From IMG/VR virus record IMGVR_UViG_3300025674_000191, positions 1 to 33,188 of that record: DNA of 33,188 bases. The stretch is one strand, 5' to 3'. The first letter of the stretch is position 1. Each line of letters begins with the position of its first letter. The notes below the pieces were generated by a model that was given only the letters and a program-made list of their open reading frames with translations, searched no databases and had not been told where the DNA came from. Below are positions 6,320 through 11,177 of this stretch, piece after piece. Origin of the DNA: a virus. The translations under genes and the position numbers were made by a program.

Positions 6320-6327
6320 TATTTATT
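6320..6327 (-). promoter_or_regulatory. Candidate late promoter (AATAAATA)
   Basis: The minus strand reads AATAAATA, one base from the T4 late consensus TATAAATA, 24 bases before the ATG of the 67-residue gene and overlapping the stop codon of the gene upstream. Placement like the other late boxes here supports it. Confidence 0.55.
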
Positions 6328-6709
6328 TCTTATCTTTCTTTTTTTCAGGCAGTCCTTTATGCTTAGTAGATGCAAAATCTTTTACATCTTTTTTCTTCAT
6401 GCTGGAAGCAACTTTGGCAACCTCAGGCGATGACGGTCCCTCACCTTTTTGAGCAGCTCTAACCATACCCATAAATTTTTGTTGCTTTTTTGATACTGCC
6501 TTTTCAGCAATAACAAGATCAGGATGTTTTGCATACAAAGGACCTTTGTAATTACCTGCAAAAACTACACTTTCATTATTAGGTTTTGTAGTCATACCAG
6601 TTTCACCATCTCTGATGGTGGGCATAACTTCTACATTTCCTTTTTTCTTTGACTTACGTGCTTTATCTTTGCAACCGCACTCTTCTCTGAATTGTTTGAA
6701 TGTCTTCAT
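6323..6709 (-). CDS. DUF3008-like basic protein with capsid-targeting-like N-terminus
   Basis: 128 residues, very Lys-rich. The C-terminal half (about 73-125: SKKQQKFMGMVRAAQKGE, then SSMKKKDVKDFASTKHKGLP) matches what I know of the DUF3008 family, common in marine phages and of unknown function. The first ten residues, MKTFKQFREE, line up one-to-one with the T4 internal-protein targeting peptide MKTYQEFIAE that gp21 protease removes after the glutamate. With its basic character this suggests a DNA-associated protein packaged inside the head; that is inference. The CGC following residue 10 is unusual. Start overlaps the upstream stop by 4 bases (ATGA). Confidence 0.8.
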   Translation of the reverse strand: MKTFKQFREECGCKDKARKSKKKGNVEVMPTIRDGETGMTTKPNNESVVFAGNYKGPLYAKHPDLVIAEKAVSKKQQKFMGMVRAAQKGEGPSSPEVAKVASSMKKKDVKDFASTKHKGLPEKKKDKK

Positions 6710-7305
6710 TTCTTACCCTTCATAGAAATAATCTTGCTGACTTTCTTACGACGCATGTGGAGATACTTGTCAGACTTATCTACATCGCCATCGTTGTCAA
6801 TATCTTTATCCTTTCTATCAGCGTGATCACCCTTTAGTTCTTTGTGATTTACAGGATCTAATTTTTTCTCTGCGAGTTCTTCACCATCATGTGTTAGTTC
6901 GTCACCTGCCTTGACACAATCATCAACTTTCTTGCCGCCCTTCATCTTAGTGCCAGCATACTTATAACCTTTCCAGCAAGCCTTGCCGTCTAGACCCTTG
7001 ACCTTCTCAATGACATAGGTCTCGCCGTCAACCTCATACTCTTCACGCTCAAGAACTTCTACTTCCTCATTCTTGGGAGAACTTTCTTGACCGACATATC
7101 CACCCTTCTTTGCAGTCTTCTTACGCTTTGTAGTATCTTCAATCTCAGCACCATTTGACTGAGGATCCATACCATCAAATGGTGCTTCGCTGATTATAGT
7201 ATTTTGGAAGGTTTCTCCTCCCATCCATCTACCATAAGCTTCCATCAACCCAGACGAAAACTCATCGTTGCTGTTGACGTTATTAATTGGCTTCTGATAT
7301 TTCAT
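6706..7305 (-). CDS. Hypothetical protein with EF-hand-like loop and CWKGY motif
   Basis: 199 residues, function unknown. Two recognisable stretches: around 127-152 a CWKGYKYAGTKMKGGKKVDD segment ending in a second cysteine, a pattern I recall in other marine T4-like phage proteins, and near 170-182 a calcium-loop-like DIDNDGDVDKSDKYL (alternating acidic residues as in EF-hand or dockerin loops), followed by a basic tail. The N-terminus has GLMEAYG, which fits an L-x-E|A prohead-protease site, but is not at the usual position. An exact late promoter lies 27 bases upstream. Structural or head-internal role is only inferred. Confidence 0.78.
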   Translation of the reverse strand: MKYQKPINNVNSNDEFSSGLMEAYGRWMGGETFQNTIISEAPFDGMDPQSNGAEIEDTTKRKKTAKKGGYVGQESSPKNEEVEVLEREEYEVDGETYVIEKVKGLDGKACWKGYKYAGTKMKGGKKVDDCVKAGDELTHDGEELAEKKLDPVNHKELKGDHADRKDKDIDNDGDVDKSDKYLHMRRKKVSKIISMKGKK

Positions 7306-7537
7306 CGTTTAGTAGGGACGTTCTTCTCGTATTATTTATAGATCTAATATTCTTAATCCACTCTCGGAACATCTCACCATCCTCAGAAATAACAATTGCA
7401 TAATTACCACCTACCCTATGGATGTGTCCCTTGTCTCCTGTGCGTGAAGACATAACAGCATCACCTTCACGAAAGACAAGTTGCTGTCTTTGTTGTTGGC
7501 GTAGTGCTTCCTCACGTAGTTTTTTGAAATCTTTCAT
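7283..7537 (-). CDS. Small KOW/SH3-like protein with capsid-targeting-like N-terminus
   Basis: 84 residues. The first ten, MKDFKKLREE, followed by Ala, align with the T4 internal-protein leader MKTYQEFIAE|A. After a Gln-rich linker (residues 12-20), the core FREGDAVMSSRTGDKGHIHR with GGNYAIVISEDGEMFREW behind it looks like a small KOW or SH3-like barrel, a fold often used for nucleic acid or protein binding. Start overlaps the upstream stop by 4 bases; its own end overlaps the next gene by 23. A late promoter is embedded in its 3' half. Function unknown. Confidence 0.78.
   Translation of the reverse strand: MKDFKKLREEALRQQQRQQLVFREGDAVMSSRTGDKGHIHRVGGNYAIVISEDGEMFREWIKNIRSINNTRRTSLLNDEISEAN
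7333..7340 (-). promoter_or_regulatory. T4-type late promoter (TATAAATA)
   Basis: Exact TATAAATA on the minus strand, 27 bases before the ATG of the 199-residue protein and inside the coding region of the gene upstream. It would express the 199-residue and DUF3008-like genes separately from the upstream large genes. Confidence 0.7.
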
Positions 7538-9405
7538 GGATTCATTCCTAAAGTATCTTGTAAGTTAAACGCATTATTCTTGGATCTCAAATCAACCCAC
7601 TTCTTATATCTACTCATATTAACAGTAGAGATAAACTTATACTCCAATTCCATTCCACTAGTAGATGTTTTTTCATACATCACAGAATAGAGAATTTGTT
7701 TTTTACTTAACACATTATCATAAAACAATTTCCAAAAATTTATTCTACTAGATCCATCATTCTTTGAAGTTTTTACCACAGCTTTCTCACAAAGATAACC
7801 AAAATTGTTTAGTGCAAAAGGATATCTCTTTTCAGATAAATCATGATCTTCGGACACTTCATAAGCTACTTTAGTTATAGAACCTTTTTTTGAAAAAAAT
7901 TCAATCTTCTTTGAAATTACATTCCTCTCAGCAAAATCAATATACTTTCTCTTTTGAGATGGATTATTGTGCGGAATATTGTAAGCAATTAATAGCTTAA
8001 CATACTTCAATTCTTCGTCAGTTAAATTAAAGATACCATCTATTGGAACATGTCTTTCCGAAACAGATGAAGTATGAATTTTGCTATCTACTTTCTTTAG
8101 TATAGTTTTAAGCGTTTGTAGATTCAATCCTATGGGAACTTCTAAAACAGATTTAAAATCTCTCCAAGTTGCTGAAGCAAACTTACCATCATTCAACAAA
8201 TTATACAATGCCCTGATGGGATACAACGTAGTTCTACCTCCTCCCTTTGAACTATATTCTAAAGCAGTTTTAGATATAATTTTCTGTCCAATAGCACTCT
8301 TGGATCCTTTCATTTTAGATGTCAGTCCATCAAACCATTGCTGAACTTCTTCCTCATCATCAAACACAGTATGAAATTTTACTGTCGCTGGGTTTGAGGA
8401 TAATCTAGATTTAACACTAACTTTAATACTATTGTTTCTATTGTAATAAACTTCATAATCCATCAATGCTTCGTTGGCAGATTTTGGAAGGAAGATACGA
8501 ATATACGATGGGTCTATTGCGCTAATCTGCTCATCATTCCATCCAAGATTTTGTTTCAGGAATGAAGTATTTCTCATCTCAATATTTCTTGCCAACTTTA
8601 ACGGAGAAAGAACTTCAAACAATTCGGAACTAAAATCAGAAGCTCCCACACTAGGAACTTTCAAATTAGTATTGCCGTAGGCATGTTCAAGAGCATCAAG
8701 AAAAGTTTTCTTGGATGCTACTGATATCTTTTGAATGTTGATATATTTTTGAACAAGCAACTTAAAGTTTCTACTGCTCAATTTATTGCCGAGCAATCTT
8801 GGAACTTGTTTTGGTTTGAATTTCTTAAATGGCGTCTCGTTAGTTTCTGCTTTATCCGAAGTTGATTTCAAAAATAATCTAAGTATTACAGAGATATCTT
8901 TTTTTTCCTTTTTTCCTGTTTTTCTATTCAACACCATCTTGTCATATTTTATTTGAATTTCAATTCTTGGTTTGCCACCATTAGACTGAGAATTGAATGT
9001 CACATATCCATTCTTCAATCCATACTTCATCAAATTAGAATATGACTTTATCTTTTGAATAAGTTTAGTAATAAACTGTGCTCTAATAGATCTAGCTCTA
9101 AGATCAGGAACAGACCCATCATCAACATACAGTTTATATTCTACTGGAGTAGGTTTATTAATCTTCACTCCATTAAAATGCTGGTTAAATTCAGAACCCT
9201 GAATATATCCACCACGCTTATTGATTGGAATTTTAGCACCAGTATCATCTAGGGAGAACTTAAATCCAGAATTGGTTTCATACATCTCATTAAAAACTTC
9301 ACCAGACAAATGCTCAATAGCATGAATGGTGTAGATAAATCTAGAAAACTTTGAAGATAGATTGTTTTTTAATTTTTCGTCTAGTTGTGCTCTGGATATT
9401 ATCAT
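7534..9405 (-). CDS. Large hypothetical protein, 623 aa, partner of nucleotidyltransferase fusion
   Basis: No family recognised. Rich in Lys, Ser and Asn, mixed alpha/beta, no signal peptide or membrane segment. One stretch, D316 in LMDYEVYY followed by SIKVSVKSR (S330, K332), has the spacing of a PD-(D/E)xK nuclease core with Ser in place of the acidic residue; this is weak. Its ATG overlaps the stop of the nucleotidyltransferase fusion by 4 bases, and its own stop overlaps the next start by 4, so it is translated as part of that operon. Fixed pairing suggests joint action with the upstream enzyme, on RNA or DNA ends, but this is inference. Confidence 0.85.
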   Translation of the reverse strand: MIISRAQLDEKLKNNLSSKFSRFIYTIHAIEHLSGEVFNEMYETNSGFKFSLDDTGAKIPINKRGGYIQGSEFNQHFNGVKINKPTPVEYKLYVDDGSVPDLRARSIRAQFITKLIQKIKSYSNLMKYGLKNGYVTFNSQSNGGKPRIEIQIKYDKMVLNRKTGKKEKKDISVILRLFLKSTSDKAETNETPFKKFKPKQVPRLLGNKLSSRNFKLLVQKYINIQKISVASKKTFLDALEHAYGNTNLKVPSVGASDFSSELFEVLSPLKLARNIEMRNTSFLKQNLGWNDEQISAIDPSYIRIFLPKSANEALMDYEVYYNRNNSIKVSVKSRLSSNPATVKFHTVFDDEEEVQQWFDGLTSKMKGSKSAIGQKIISKTALEYSSKGGGRTTLYPIRALYNLLNDGKFASATWRDFKSVLEVPIGLNLQTLKTILKKVDSKIHTSSVSERHVPIDGIFNLTDEELKYVKLLIAYNIPHNNPSQKRKYIDFAERNVISKKIEFFSKKGSITKVAYEVSEDHDLSEKRYPFALNNFGYLCEKAVVKTSKNDGSSRINFWKLFYDNVLSKKQILYSVMYEKTSTSGMELEYKFISTVNMSRYKKWVDLRSKNNAFNLQDTLGMNP

Positions 9406-11177
9406 GACATCCCCGACAATACAGTATCTATATACATCTCAACAAATTCATCATCTCGCTTTACGCTGTCTGGCAATCCACTCTTGATAGTTTTTACATC
9501 ACCATCAACAGCCGCCTGCCTCATTTTACTTGCAGACATACCAGAAACATCATCAGCATCTGGATCACGCTGACCAGCACTCTTTATCTCAACAGTATTC
9601 ATGTTATAGTCTTTTCCATTATATTTTTTGATGAACTGGAAGGCAGGGACACGATCAGAACCCACCACAAAGATAGCATCAGTATATCCCTTTCCTTCCA
9701 ACCACTTCAAAGCTTTAATAGCATCACGAATAGTTTCATCTAAGATAACGTTATCCTTATGAGAAGGAAACATCATCTTCATGAAAGATACTTTTTGAGC
9801 AGCAGTCAAAGGGTTCTTTCCTTTTTTGTCTACAGTATGACTAGGGAACACGTAGTAGTCATTACCAGCAGCATACTCCTTAACTTTATTTATTAGTAAC
9901 TCATGTCCCGTGGTAGGAGGATTGAACCTACCAAACGTGAATACAGCAACCTTAGCGCCATCACCAGCAGGAGGACGCCAAGACTTCTCCAACGTAAAGT
10001 TGGCACGAGAGAACTCAAGACGATCAACGATCTTGACTGCCTTGCCATCAACGATAGCAACGAAACCTTCAGGCTTCGTCACCACAAAGTTGTCACCGCT
10101 ACGAAGGAATACTTTAGTGTCGCTGAGACCAGCAAGCTTCAGGTTGATGAGGTTCTTGGCATTCGTGAAAGAGTTATACATCACGATGAATGCCTTGAAT
10201 GCTCGCTTATTATCTTCTAGGTAAGATATACCATTAGCGAGAGTGTCACGATACTGTGCCTTAGACTTCTCAGTTTTCAGACTCTCTACCTTCTCAACCA
10301 GAGACTTCTCAAACGCTTTGGTAAAACCGCTGATGAAAGCATTCACGTTTGTGATAGTCTTACCTTCTTTTACATAAGAGTTTGTAAAACGCTTCATCGT
10401 ATAACCAAGAGTAAATTGCTTGGTTGCGTTATGTGCAATCAGTTCTAAGAACTCTTTAGCAGTAGAAGCATTACGATCAACAACAGAAACAACAGCTTTT
10501 AAAATACGCTCTTCGGAAGTGGTAAGACCAGAATTTGCACTAATATTATCTACAGTAGCAGTTGCCAGAAATACATTACGAGTGGATTTCAGGCGAAACT
10601 GGTCAACACCAAACCCAGCAGACAACGTATTGACTGGACCAGTACCGCTGTAATACGTGTGAAATACAGCACCGATCTTAGCGGTATTGACTGCTTTGCC
10701 CAGATCGCTATCTACAGGCCAAGCATACGTCAGAGTGTTAGGAGTAGCAGTATAGAAACGATCACCATCAATATTTTTAGTTTGAACATCCTCATCAGTA
10801 AAGAGAAGATCTCCCTGTATAACTCCGTTGATCTTCAGTTCAGGAAAATACTTCAAACAATACTTTAGTTTCTTAGCGAGGTCAGGGATCTCGCCATGGT
10901 TCTTATCAATATCTTCTTCAGTAAAATTTACTTTAGGTTCTTTTTTATTAAATACAGACTTAGTACCAACAAAGAAATTGCCGCTCTCTGGGTCAATGCC
11001 ACAAACCACAGCAGGAGCTCCATCCCATTTGGTAGTCACCTTGATATTGCCTGCAGGGCGACCGCCAAGCTCGTCTATAAATCCTTGTATGAGGTCTCTA
11101 GAAGCAACATAACCATTATATCCATAGTTGATCAACTCGTCTTCAAGGTGCTCCAGGTGCTTGTTCTGGGTTGCCAT
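9402..11177 (-). CDS. Ligase-like KxDG nucleotidyltransferase fused to HxGH-type cytidylyltransferase-like domain
   Basis: 591 residues, two enzymes in one chain. Residues about 40-400 carry the motifs of the DNA/RNA ligase and capping-enzyme fold: K50-W-D-G (motif I lysine), GNFFVGTKSVFNK at 66-78, GVIQGDLLF at 118-126 (motif IV) and EGFVAIVDGKAVKIVDR at 370-386 (motif V), with a helical insert at about 180-350. Residues about 408-590 form a nucleotidylyltransferase of the HxGH superfamily: GRFNPPTTGH at 416-425, VGSDRV near 505-510 and SGMSASKMR at 545-553. Such domains make NAD, FAD, CoA or CDP-linked products. Cyanophage homologues are usually called 'cytidylyltransferase'; the substrate is unknown. 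ATG 11177 lies just after a 5' hairpin and has no visible ribosome binding site. Confidence 0.85.
   Translation of the reverse strand: MATQNKHLEHLEDELINYGYNGYVASRDLIQGFIDELGGRPAGNIKVTTKWDGAPAVVCGIDPESGNFFVGTKSVFNKKEPKVNFTEEDIDKNHGEIPDLAKKLKYCLKYFPELKINGVIQGDLLFTDEDVQTKNIDGDRFYTATPNTLTYAWPVDSDLGKAVNTAKIGAVFHTYYSGTGPVNTLSAGFGVDQFRLKSTRNVFLATATVDNISANSGLTTSEERILKAVVSVVDRNASTAKEFLELIAHNATKQFTLGYTMKRFTNSYVKEGKTITNVNAFISGFTKAFEKSLVEKVESLKTEKSKAQYRDTLANGISYLEDNKRAFKAFIVMYNSFTNAKNLINLKLAGLSDTKVFLRSGDNFVVTKPEGFVAIVDGKAVKIVDRLEFSRANFTLEKSWRPPAGDGAKVAVFTFGRFNPPTTGHELLINKVKEYAAGNDYYVFPSHTVDKKGKNPLTAAQKVSFMKMMFPSHKDNVILDETIRDAIKALKWLEGKGYTDAIFVVGSDRVPAFQFIKKYNGKDYNMNTVEIKSAGQRDPDADDVSGMSASKMRQAAVDGDVKTIKSGLPDSVKRDDEFVEMYIDTVLSGMS

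Follow-up and report, generated by a model that had tools for sequence, protein, structure and literature searches.

A cyanophage gene fusing DUF6267, a predicted divergent member of the ligase/capping superfamily, to a HIGH-superfamily nucleotidyltransferase

Results

One reading frame carrying two domains

The DNA analyzed here is a 33,188-nucleotide stretch of viral sequence (IMG/VR record IMGVR_UViG_3300025674_000191, positions 1 to 33,188; hereafter the window), a virus record of 33 kb whose close relative is cyanophage S-PM2. Positions 9402-11177 hold a single open reading frame (ORF) of 591 amino acids with an ATG start, in which a DUF6267 domain and a HIGH-superfamily nucleotidyltransferase lie in one chain (Table 1). 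An earlier note on this sequence had described the same frame without a strand, which is the minus strand, and the motifs that it named are all in place: K50-W-D-G, E370-G as motif IV, K382 as motif V and, in the second half, G416RFNPPTTGH425 together with S545GMSASKMR553. The frame is more than a chance one: residues 5-398 match Pfam family DUF6267 (PF19782) at E 5.2e-111, with 372.1 bits against a curated cut-off of 27 and across the full model (positions 1-376 of 376), and residues 414-554 match CTP_transf_like (PF01467) with 28.3 bits against a cut-off of 21.

Both domains lie in a single ORF in 57 of the first 154 sequences examined; these include numerous independent contigs from metagenomes as well as the re-sequenced genome of S-PM2. 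An assembly artefact was therefore rejected as the source of the fusion. In the re-sequenced S-PM2 genome (2015 record, L066), the same gene is intact and single, is named S-PM2d138 and is labelled T4-GC71. In the older S-PM2 record (L048, 5983-7780), a frameshift peculiar to the record breaks the gene into two overlapping frames; this may be part of the reason that databases name the second half alone.

Table 1. Features of the fused gene and its neighbors, in window coordinates
Feature	Position	Strand	Basis
Fused 591-residue ORF, DUF6267 plus HIGH-superfamily nucleotidyltransferase; S-PM2d138 orthologue	9402..11177	-	
DUF6267 domain, residues 5-398; predicted divergent covalent nucleotidyltransferase (ligase/capping superfamily)	9984..11165	-	PF19782 and models
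Motif I, K50-W-D-G53, predicted lysyl-AMP site	11019..11030	-	K50, D52, G53 invariant, 162/162
D123, motif III-like acidic residue	10809..10811	-	Invariant, 162/162
Helical insertion, about residues 212-350, separating motifs III and IV; the syn9/P-SSM2-type subfamily has a shortened one	10128..10544	-	
Motif IV, E370-G371	10065..10070	-	Invariant, 127/127
Motif V lysine K382, K-[IL]-V-x-R pattern	10032..10034	-	K382 and R386 invariant, 127/127
HIGH-superfamily nucleotidyltransferase domain, about residues 410-580; T4-GC190 type, NMNAT-like	9438..9950	-	PF01467
GRFNPPTTGH (T/HxGH motif)	9903..9932	-	H425 invariant in 11/11 aligned nucleotidyltransferase domains
SGMSASKMR (SxTxxR-type motif)	9519..9545	-	S548 and R553 invariant in 11/11
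623-residue protein, family unassigned; its start codon and the fused gene's stop codon overlap (ATGA)	7534..9405	-	
84-residue protein MKDFKKLREE..., T4 capsid-targeting-like start; C-terminal module of the nucleotidyltransferase in other phages	7283..7537	-	
DUF3008 protein starting MKTFKQFREE, T4 capsid-targeting-like start	6323..6709	-	

Sequence and predicted structure of the DUF6267 domain

Conservation was assessed in 162 homologues of less than 80% identity, drawn from about 350 loci, of which 127 cover motifs IV-V. None of the 162 departs from K50, D52, G53, K73, F76, D123, N147, H173 or N266, and E370, G371, V373, K382, R386, F389 and N393 are likewise invariant among the 127. The domain therefore has the KxDG of motif I, the acidic residue of motif III and the EG of motif IV that characterize the ligase/capping superfamily. 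The earlier note had read residues 1-400 as a ligase/capping fold and would have abandoned that reading had K50 and the motif V residues varied among homologues, or had the predicted N-terminal fold been unlike that of nucleotidyltransferases; it withstood both checks.

The AlphaFold model of the window domain has a predicted local distance difference test score (pLDDT) of 91.7. Since the helical insertion dominates the model of the full 405-residue domain, a short-insert relative of 295 residues was modelled instead (pLDDT 92.0). When this model was compared with the PDB by Foldseek, superfamily members made up 26 of the top 28 matches and 37 of the top 50, two ligation-complex chains being scored as ligase by their descriptions. 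They include DNA ligases, T4 Rnl2, REL1, Trl1 (yeast-type tRNA ligase), capping enzymes and NAD-dependent ligases. The matches of the short-insert relative to T4 Rnl2, REL1 and ATP-dependent DNA ligases (2hvr, 1s68, 1xdn, 3rr5 and 2hiv) are individually weak, and unlike these enzymes it has no identified OB-fold or C-terminal ligase domain.

In motif style, the domain appears most like the RNA-ligase branch of the superfamily. Read side by side, T4 Rnl1 (PF09511) has the motif order K99xDG, K117SK119, E159...PTN165 and EGYVAV...K240, to which KxDG, K73S, D123...PN147 and EG[FY]VAI...K382 correspond in DUF6267 with similar spacing. Unlike T4 Rnl1, however, DUF6267 lacks the second lysine of motif V and carries the large helical insertion, the tRNA-specific C-terminal domain is not recognized in the fused protein, and sequence and profile similarity to the Rnl1 family is not significant. 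No relatives of the domain were found among PDB sequences by phmmer and profile searches. When 96 homologues were scanned one by one against Pfam, no ligase match recurred (one member matched PF09511 at E 0.017), and the profiles of ATP- and NAD-dependent DNA ligases (PF01068 and PF01653) matched neither the fused protein nor nine kyanovirus genomes.

Four observations speak against placing DUF6267 in this superfamily. The comparison of the full 405-residue domain model with the PDB gave no convincing match; no single match of the short-insert model is significant (best E 0.074, probability 0.63, TM-score at most 0.30); and an hhalign profile comparison with T4 Rnl1 was not significant, its E of 0.06 being equal to that of a decoy. 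The fourth concerns motif V, which in the superfamily is usually KxK: here the second lysine is replaced by V or I (K-x-V-x-R), while K382 and R386 are invariant. Because the group-level PDB result and the invariant motif set coincide, it is nevertheless very likely, on motif conservation and modelling, that residues 1-400 form a divergent lysyl-NMP (ligase/capping) superfamily member with an atypical motif V. The ligase/capping reading of the earlier note is in this sense supported, by the invariant motif residues and by the resemblance of a short-insert relative to the superfamily as a group. A catalytically dead or structural virion protein that keeps only the fold would account for the loss of the second motif V lysine and for the annotation of some neighbors as virion proteins; this explanation is highly improbable, given that K50, D123, E370, G371 and K382 are strictly invariant across very divergent phages.

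The same motif and fold evidence applies equally to a lysyl-AMP enzyme that modifies without ligating: it would adenylylate or cap 5' ends, or adenylylate a protein or a small molecule, and would use or release what the HIGH domain makes. The PDB matches include capping guanylyltransferases, and in the 295-residue relatives no separate OB-fold or recognized nucleic-acid-binding domain was identified. However, the EG[FY]VA... motif style is nearer to RNA ligases, a capping-type motif VI domain was not found, and no result shows a capped product, so that we regard such an enzyme as unlikely.

The HIGH-superfamily nucleotidyltransferase domain

The earlier note was right to assign the C-terminal half to the HxGH superfamily: PF01467 scores above its cut-off, and H425, S548 and R553 are invariant in all 11 aligned domains. 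Its nearest named models are those of nicotinamide mononucleotide (NMN) and nicotinate mononucleotide adenylyltransferases (TIGR00482 NadD, E 2.2e-5, 24.6 of the 112.45 bits required; TIGR01526, 21.2 of 341). As the NadD, NadM and NadR equivalog scores are far under their cut-offs, the identification of this half as a named NAD enzyme was rejected. Weak PDB sequence matches include phosphopantetheine adenylyltransferase (PPAT) and NMN adenylyltransferase (NMNAT), and the conversion of NMN to NAD is the best guess for the reaction of the domain.

The C-terminal domain is homologous to the cytidylyltransferase/NMNAT-like virion protein of cyanophages (T4-GC190; present in S-SM1, as S-SCSM1 ORF91 and as S-CREM2 ORF154), with the same T/HxGH and SxSxxR motifs. 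The T4-GC190 proteins differ in being separate proteins, often with a capsid-targeting-like start and an extra C-terminal module. The bifunctional NMN adenylyltransferases NadM and NadR likewise join a HIGH adenylyltransferase to a second nucleotide enzyme; in the fused protein, however, the partner is a ligase-like domain rather than a Nudix domain or P-loop kinase, and the scores with these family models are far under cut-off.

Such a domain could also act as a module for NAD supply only: the HIGH domain would replenish the NAD that host defence has drained, while NAD+ or a related nucleotide would serve the first domain in a reaction that leaves nucleic-acid ends untouched. The domain is NMNAT-like and is detected in virions, and phage NAD synthesis against NADase defence has been discussed (PMC9503650). 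Against this stand the NadD and NadR scores, the fact that no NadV-type partner gene was seen adjoining it and the ligase motifs of the first domain, which would be left unexplained; the proposal is very unlikely to be correct.

Repeated fusion and adjacency of the two genes

DUF6267 (PF19782; phrog_455; T4-GC71) is matched over its full length by the window protein, and its known members are mostly stand-alone; in most phages, DUF6267 and the nucleotidyltransferase are two separate genes. Of 128 unfused, testable, non-redundant loci, 94 have the nucleotidyltransferase downstream and on the same strand, half of them within 150 bases. A maximum-likelihood tree requires three changes to the fused state, which fall in the S-PM2 clade, in the L055/L057 lineage and in L322. 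That the enzymes are functionally coupled, as the earlier note had proposed for the two halves, is therefore well supported by genomic comparison, through three independent fusions and frequent downstream adjacency; the 34 testable loci with no nucleotidyltransferase nearby count against it.

Both genes are recorded in near-equal numbers in marine T4-like isolates (for example, 369 and 374 records for Synechococcus; 24 and 24 for Prochlorococcus), and the nucleotidyltransferase occurs without DUF6267 in large enterobacterial phages too. A search of 50,697 phage records found DUF6267 in 469; nearly all marine T4-like cyanobacterial viruses carry the gene, for which no function is recorded. Cellular genomes gave 30 loci in 84,980, mostly on short contigs of marine metagenome-assembled genomes; a cellular origin was set aside, these loci being taken as binned phage sequence without a check of each. 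The earlier note's view that the combination seems functionally undescribed held in part: the open literature searched yielded no previous account of the two as a pair. Taken singly, however, both halves are conserved genes widespread among cyanophages (T4-GC71 and T4-GC190), and the second has already been reported from virions (PMC3037559, PMC9602691, PMC10665884).

A candidate for the missing cyanophage ligase

Cyanomyoviruses either lack T4 gene 30 or carry distant homologues that have gone unrecognized, and S-PM2_138 is a conserved cyanophage gene of unknown function (review, PMC2984593). Eleven complete phage genomes were searched with four ligase families (PF01068, PF09414, PF01653 and PF09511), none of which matched in any of the nine marine kyanoviruses among them. 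Because these nine have no recognizable ligase, DUF6267 is a candidate for the missing one. The other two tell against this: Vibrio phage EniLVp02 (three ligase types) and Stenotrophomonas phage DLP6 (one) carry ordinary ligases beside DUF6267, and the idea of a simple DNA-ligase substitute in all hosts was rejected.

A more specific form of the idea, that DUF6267 is the replicative or repair DNA ligase missing from T4-like cyanophages and directly replaces T4 gp30, would fit the ligase search and the position of the gene, which adjoins gp41 helicase, UvsX and gp43. It appears quite unlikely, however, since the two non-cyanobacterial phages have DUF6267 plus a true DNA ligase, the host LigA could serve, and no OB-fold domain was identified. 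In a side observation, T4 gene 57B (L386:9953-10411), which lies beside ipI and encodes 152 residues, is annotated in RefSeq as 'RNA ligase' despite its small size.

Virion association and capsid-targeting-like starts

Among the core proteins of cyanophages is T4-GC190, the stand-alone form of the second half, which was identified in virions of S-SM1 (Sullivan et al. 2010, PMC3037559); relatives were detected in virions of S-SCSM1 (PMC9602691) and S-CREM2 (PMC10665884), with a warning by the authors of co-purification. The nucleotidyltransferases of S-SM1 and S-CREM2 begin MKKFSAFLNEAE and MKNFSSFLTEAD, respectively, and resemble the T4 IPII/IPIII start MKTYQEFIAEA. Capsid-targeting-like starts occur in 66 of 131 DUF6267 proteins and 58 of 107 nucleotidyltransferases, against a background of 215 of 1827 other ORFs; p-values for this enrichment are overstated, because related rows and neighboring genes are not independent.

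The fused form may likewise be packaged and delivered. Three results weigh against delivery: the GC190-type protein was undetected in the S-PM2 virion proteome (PMC3037559); the DUF6267 protein of S-CREM2 (gp87) is absent from the virion list (PMC10665884); and the fused window protein, which begins MATQNKHLEHLED, has no capsid-targeting-like start and does not classify as a T4-type capsid-targeted protein.

Neighboring genes

The 623-residue protein encoded downstream of the fused gene has no Pfam, NCBIfam or PADLOC match and only a weak PHROG match, and the PADLOC scan as a whole gave nothing useful. Other phages have, instead of this gene, a fast-evolving, unrelated-looking gene upstream of DUF6267; the two sets form unconnected clusters, and a shared family could not be demonstrated. 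In S-SCSM1, the nucleotidyltransferase has immediately upstream of it a 444-residue gene (L384:3310-4644) that carries a virion-protein annotation.

Three small genes at 6323-7537 of the window (84, 199 and 128 residues) have partial counterparts in Melnitz, C48C1 and P-HM1, where the corresponding segments belong to single, longer polypeptides. By sequence comparison, this cluster is one of repeated fusion and fission in which the nucleotidyltransferase is included. Several cyanophage records, and PHROGs as well, give the cluster's small proteins and nucleotidyltransferases (phrog_4808; window 7283-7537 with its homologues) the name 'ribonucleotide reductase A', which looks like a wrong label passed from record to record.

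At three loci (L083:3092-5542, L106:4428-6632 and L152:7928-10666), large nucleotidyltransferase proteins adjoining DUF6267 resemble polyvalent injected phage proteins, with added Pol-beta-type nucleotidyltransferase, zeta-toxin/kinase-like and protease-like segments. The S-CREM2 virion protein ORF156 (L156:3513-4226; PMC10665884 Table 3) has a Pol-beta-type NTP_transf_2 match of 21.4 bits at a cut-off of 21. A Pol-beta-type nucleotidyltransferase is thus joined to the HIGH enzyme in some relatives (L083 and L106) and packaged by S-CREM2 (ORF156), and such partners would fit end repair.

Discussion

The reading that we prefer, which has about an even chance of being right, is that the fused protein unites a lysyl-AMP strand-sealing enzyme and a HIGH adenylyltransferase in one pathway, probably acting early in infection. 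The chemistry, substrates and ligase activity that we infer for it would be as follows. Attack of K50 on the alpha-phosphate of ATP (or of NAD+) would yield lysyl-AMP, from which AMP would be transferred to a nucleic-acid 5'-phosphate, activating the 5' end for strand sealing. Residues 410-580 would join AMP to a phosphorylated small molecule, and the HIGH domain would in this way supply a dinucleotide within the same pathway as the ligase-like domain. The pair would probably repair phage or host nucleic-acid ends. A shared pathway would explain why the two enzymes have been kept adjacent and fused at least three times, and early action is suggested by the second enzyme in virions of related phages and by the capsid-targeting-like N-termini on both.

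In a stronger form, end repair would be delivered with the virion, and the AMP donor of the ligase-like domain would be NAD, or a different dinucleotide, made by the HIGH domain in the same chain. This version is speculative, with little chance of being correct. If true, ends would be sealed straight after entry even with NAD drained by host defence, and most marine T4-like phages would carry a new class of ligase. The placement of DUF6267 in the ligase/capping superfamily would by itself give a concrete predicted chemistry to a gene without a recorded function, and would tie that gene to an NMNAT-like protein that has been seen in virions but left unexplained.

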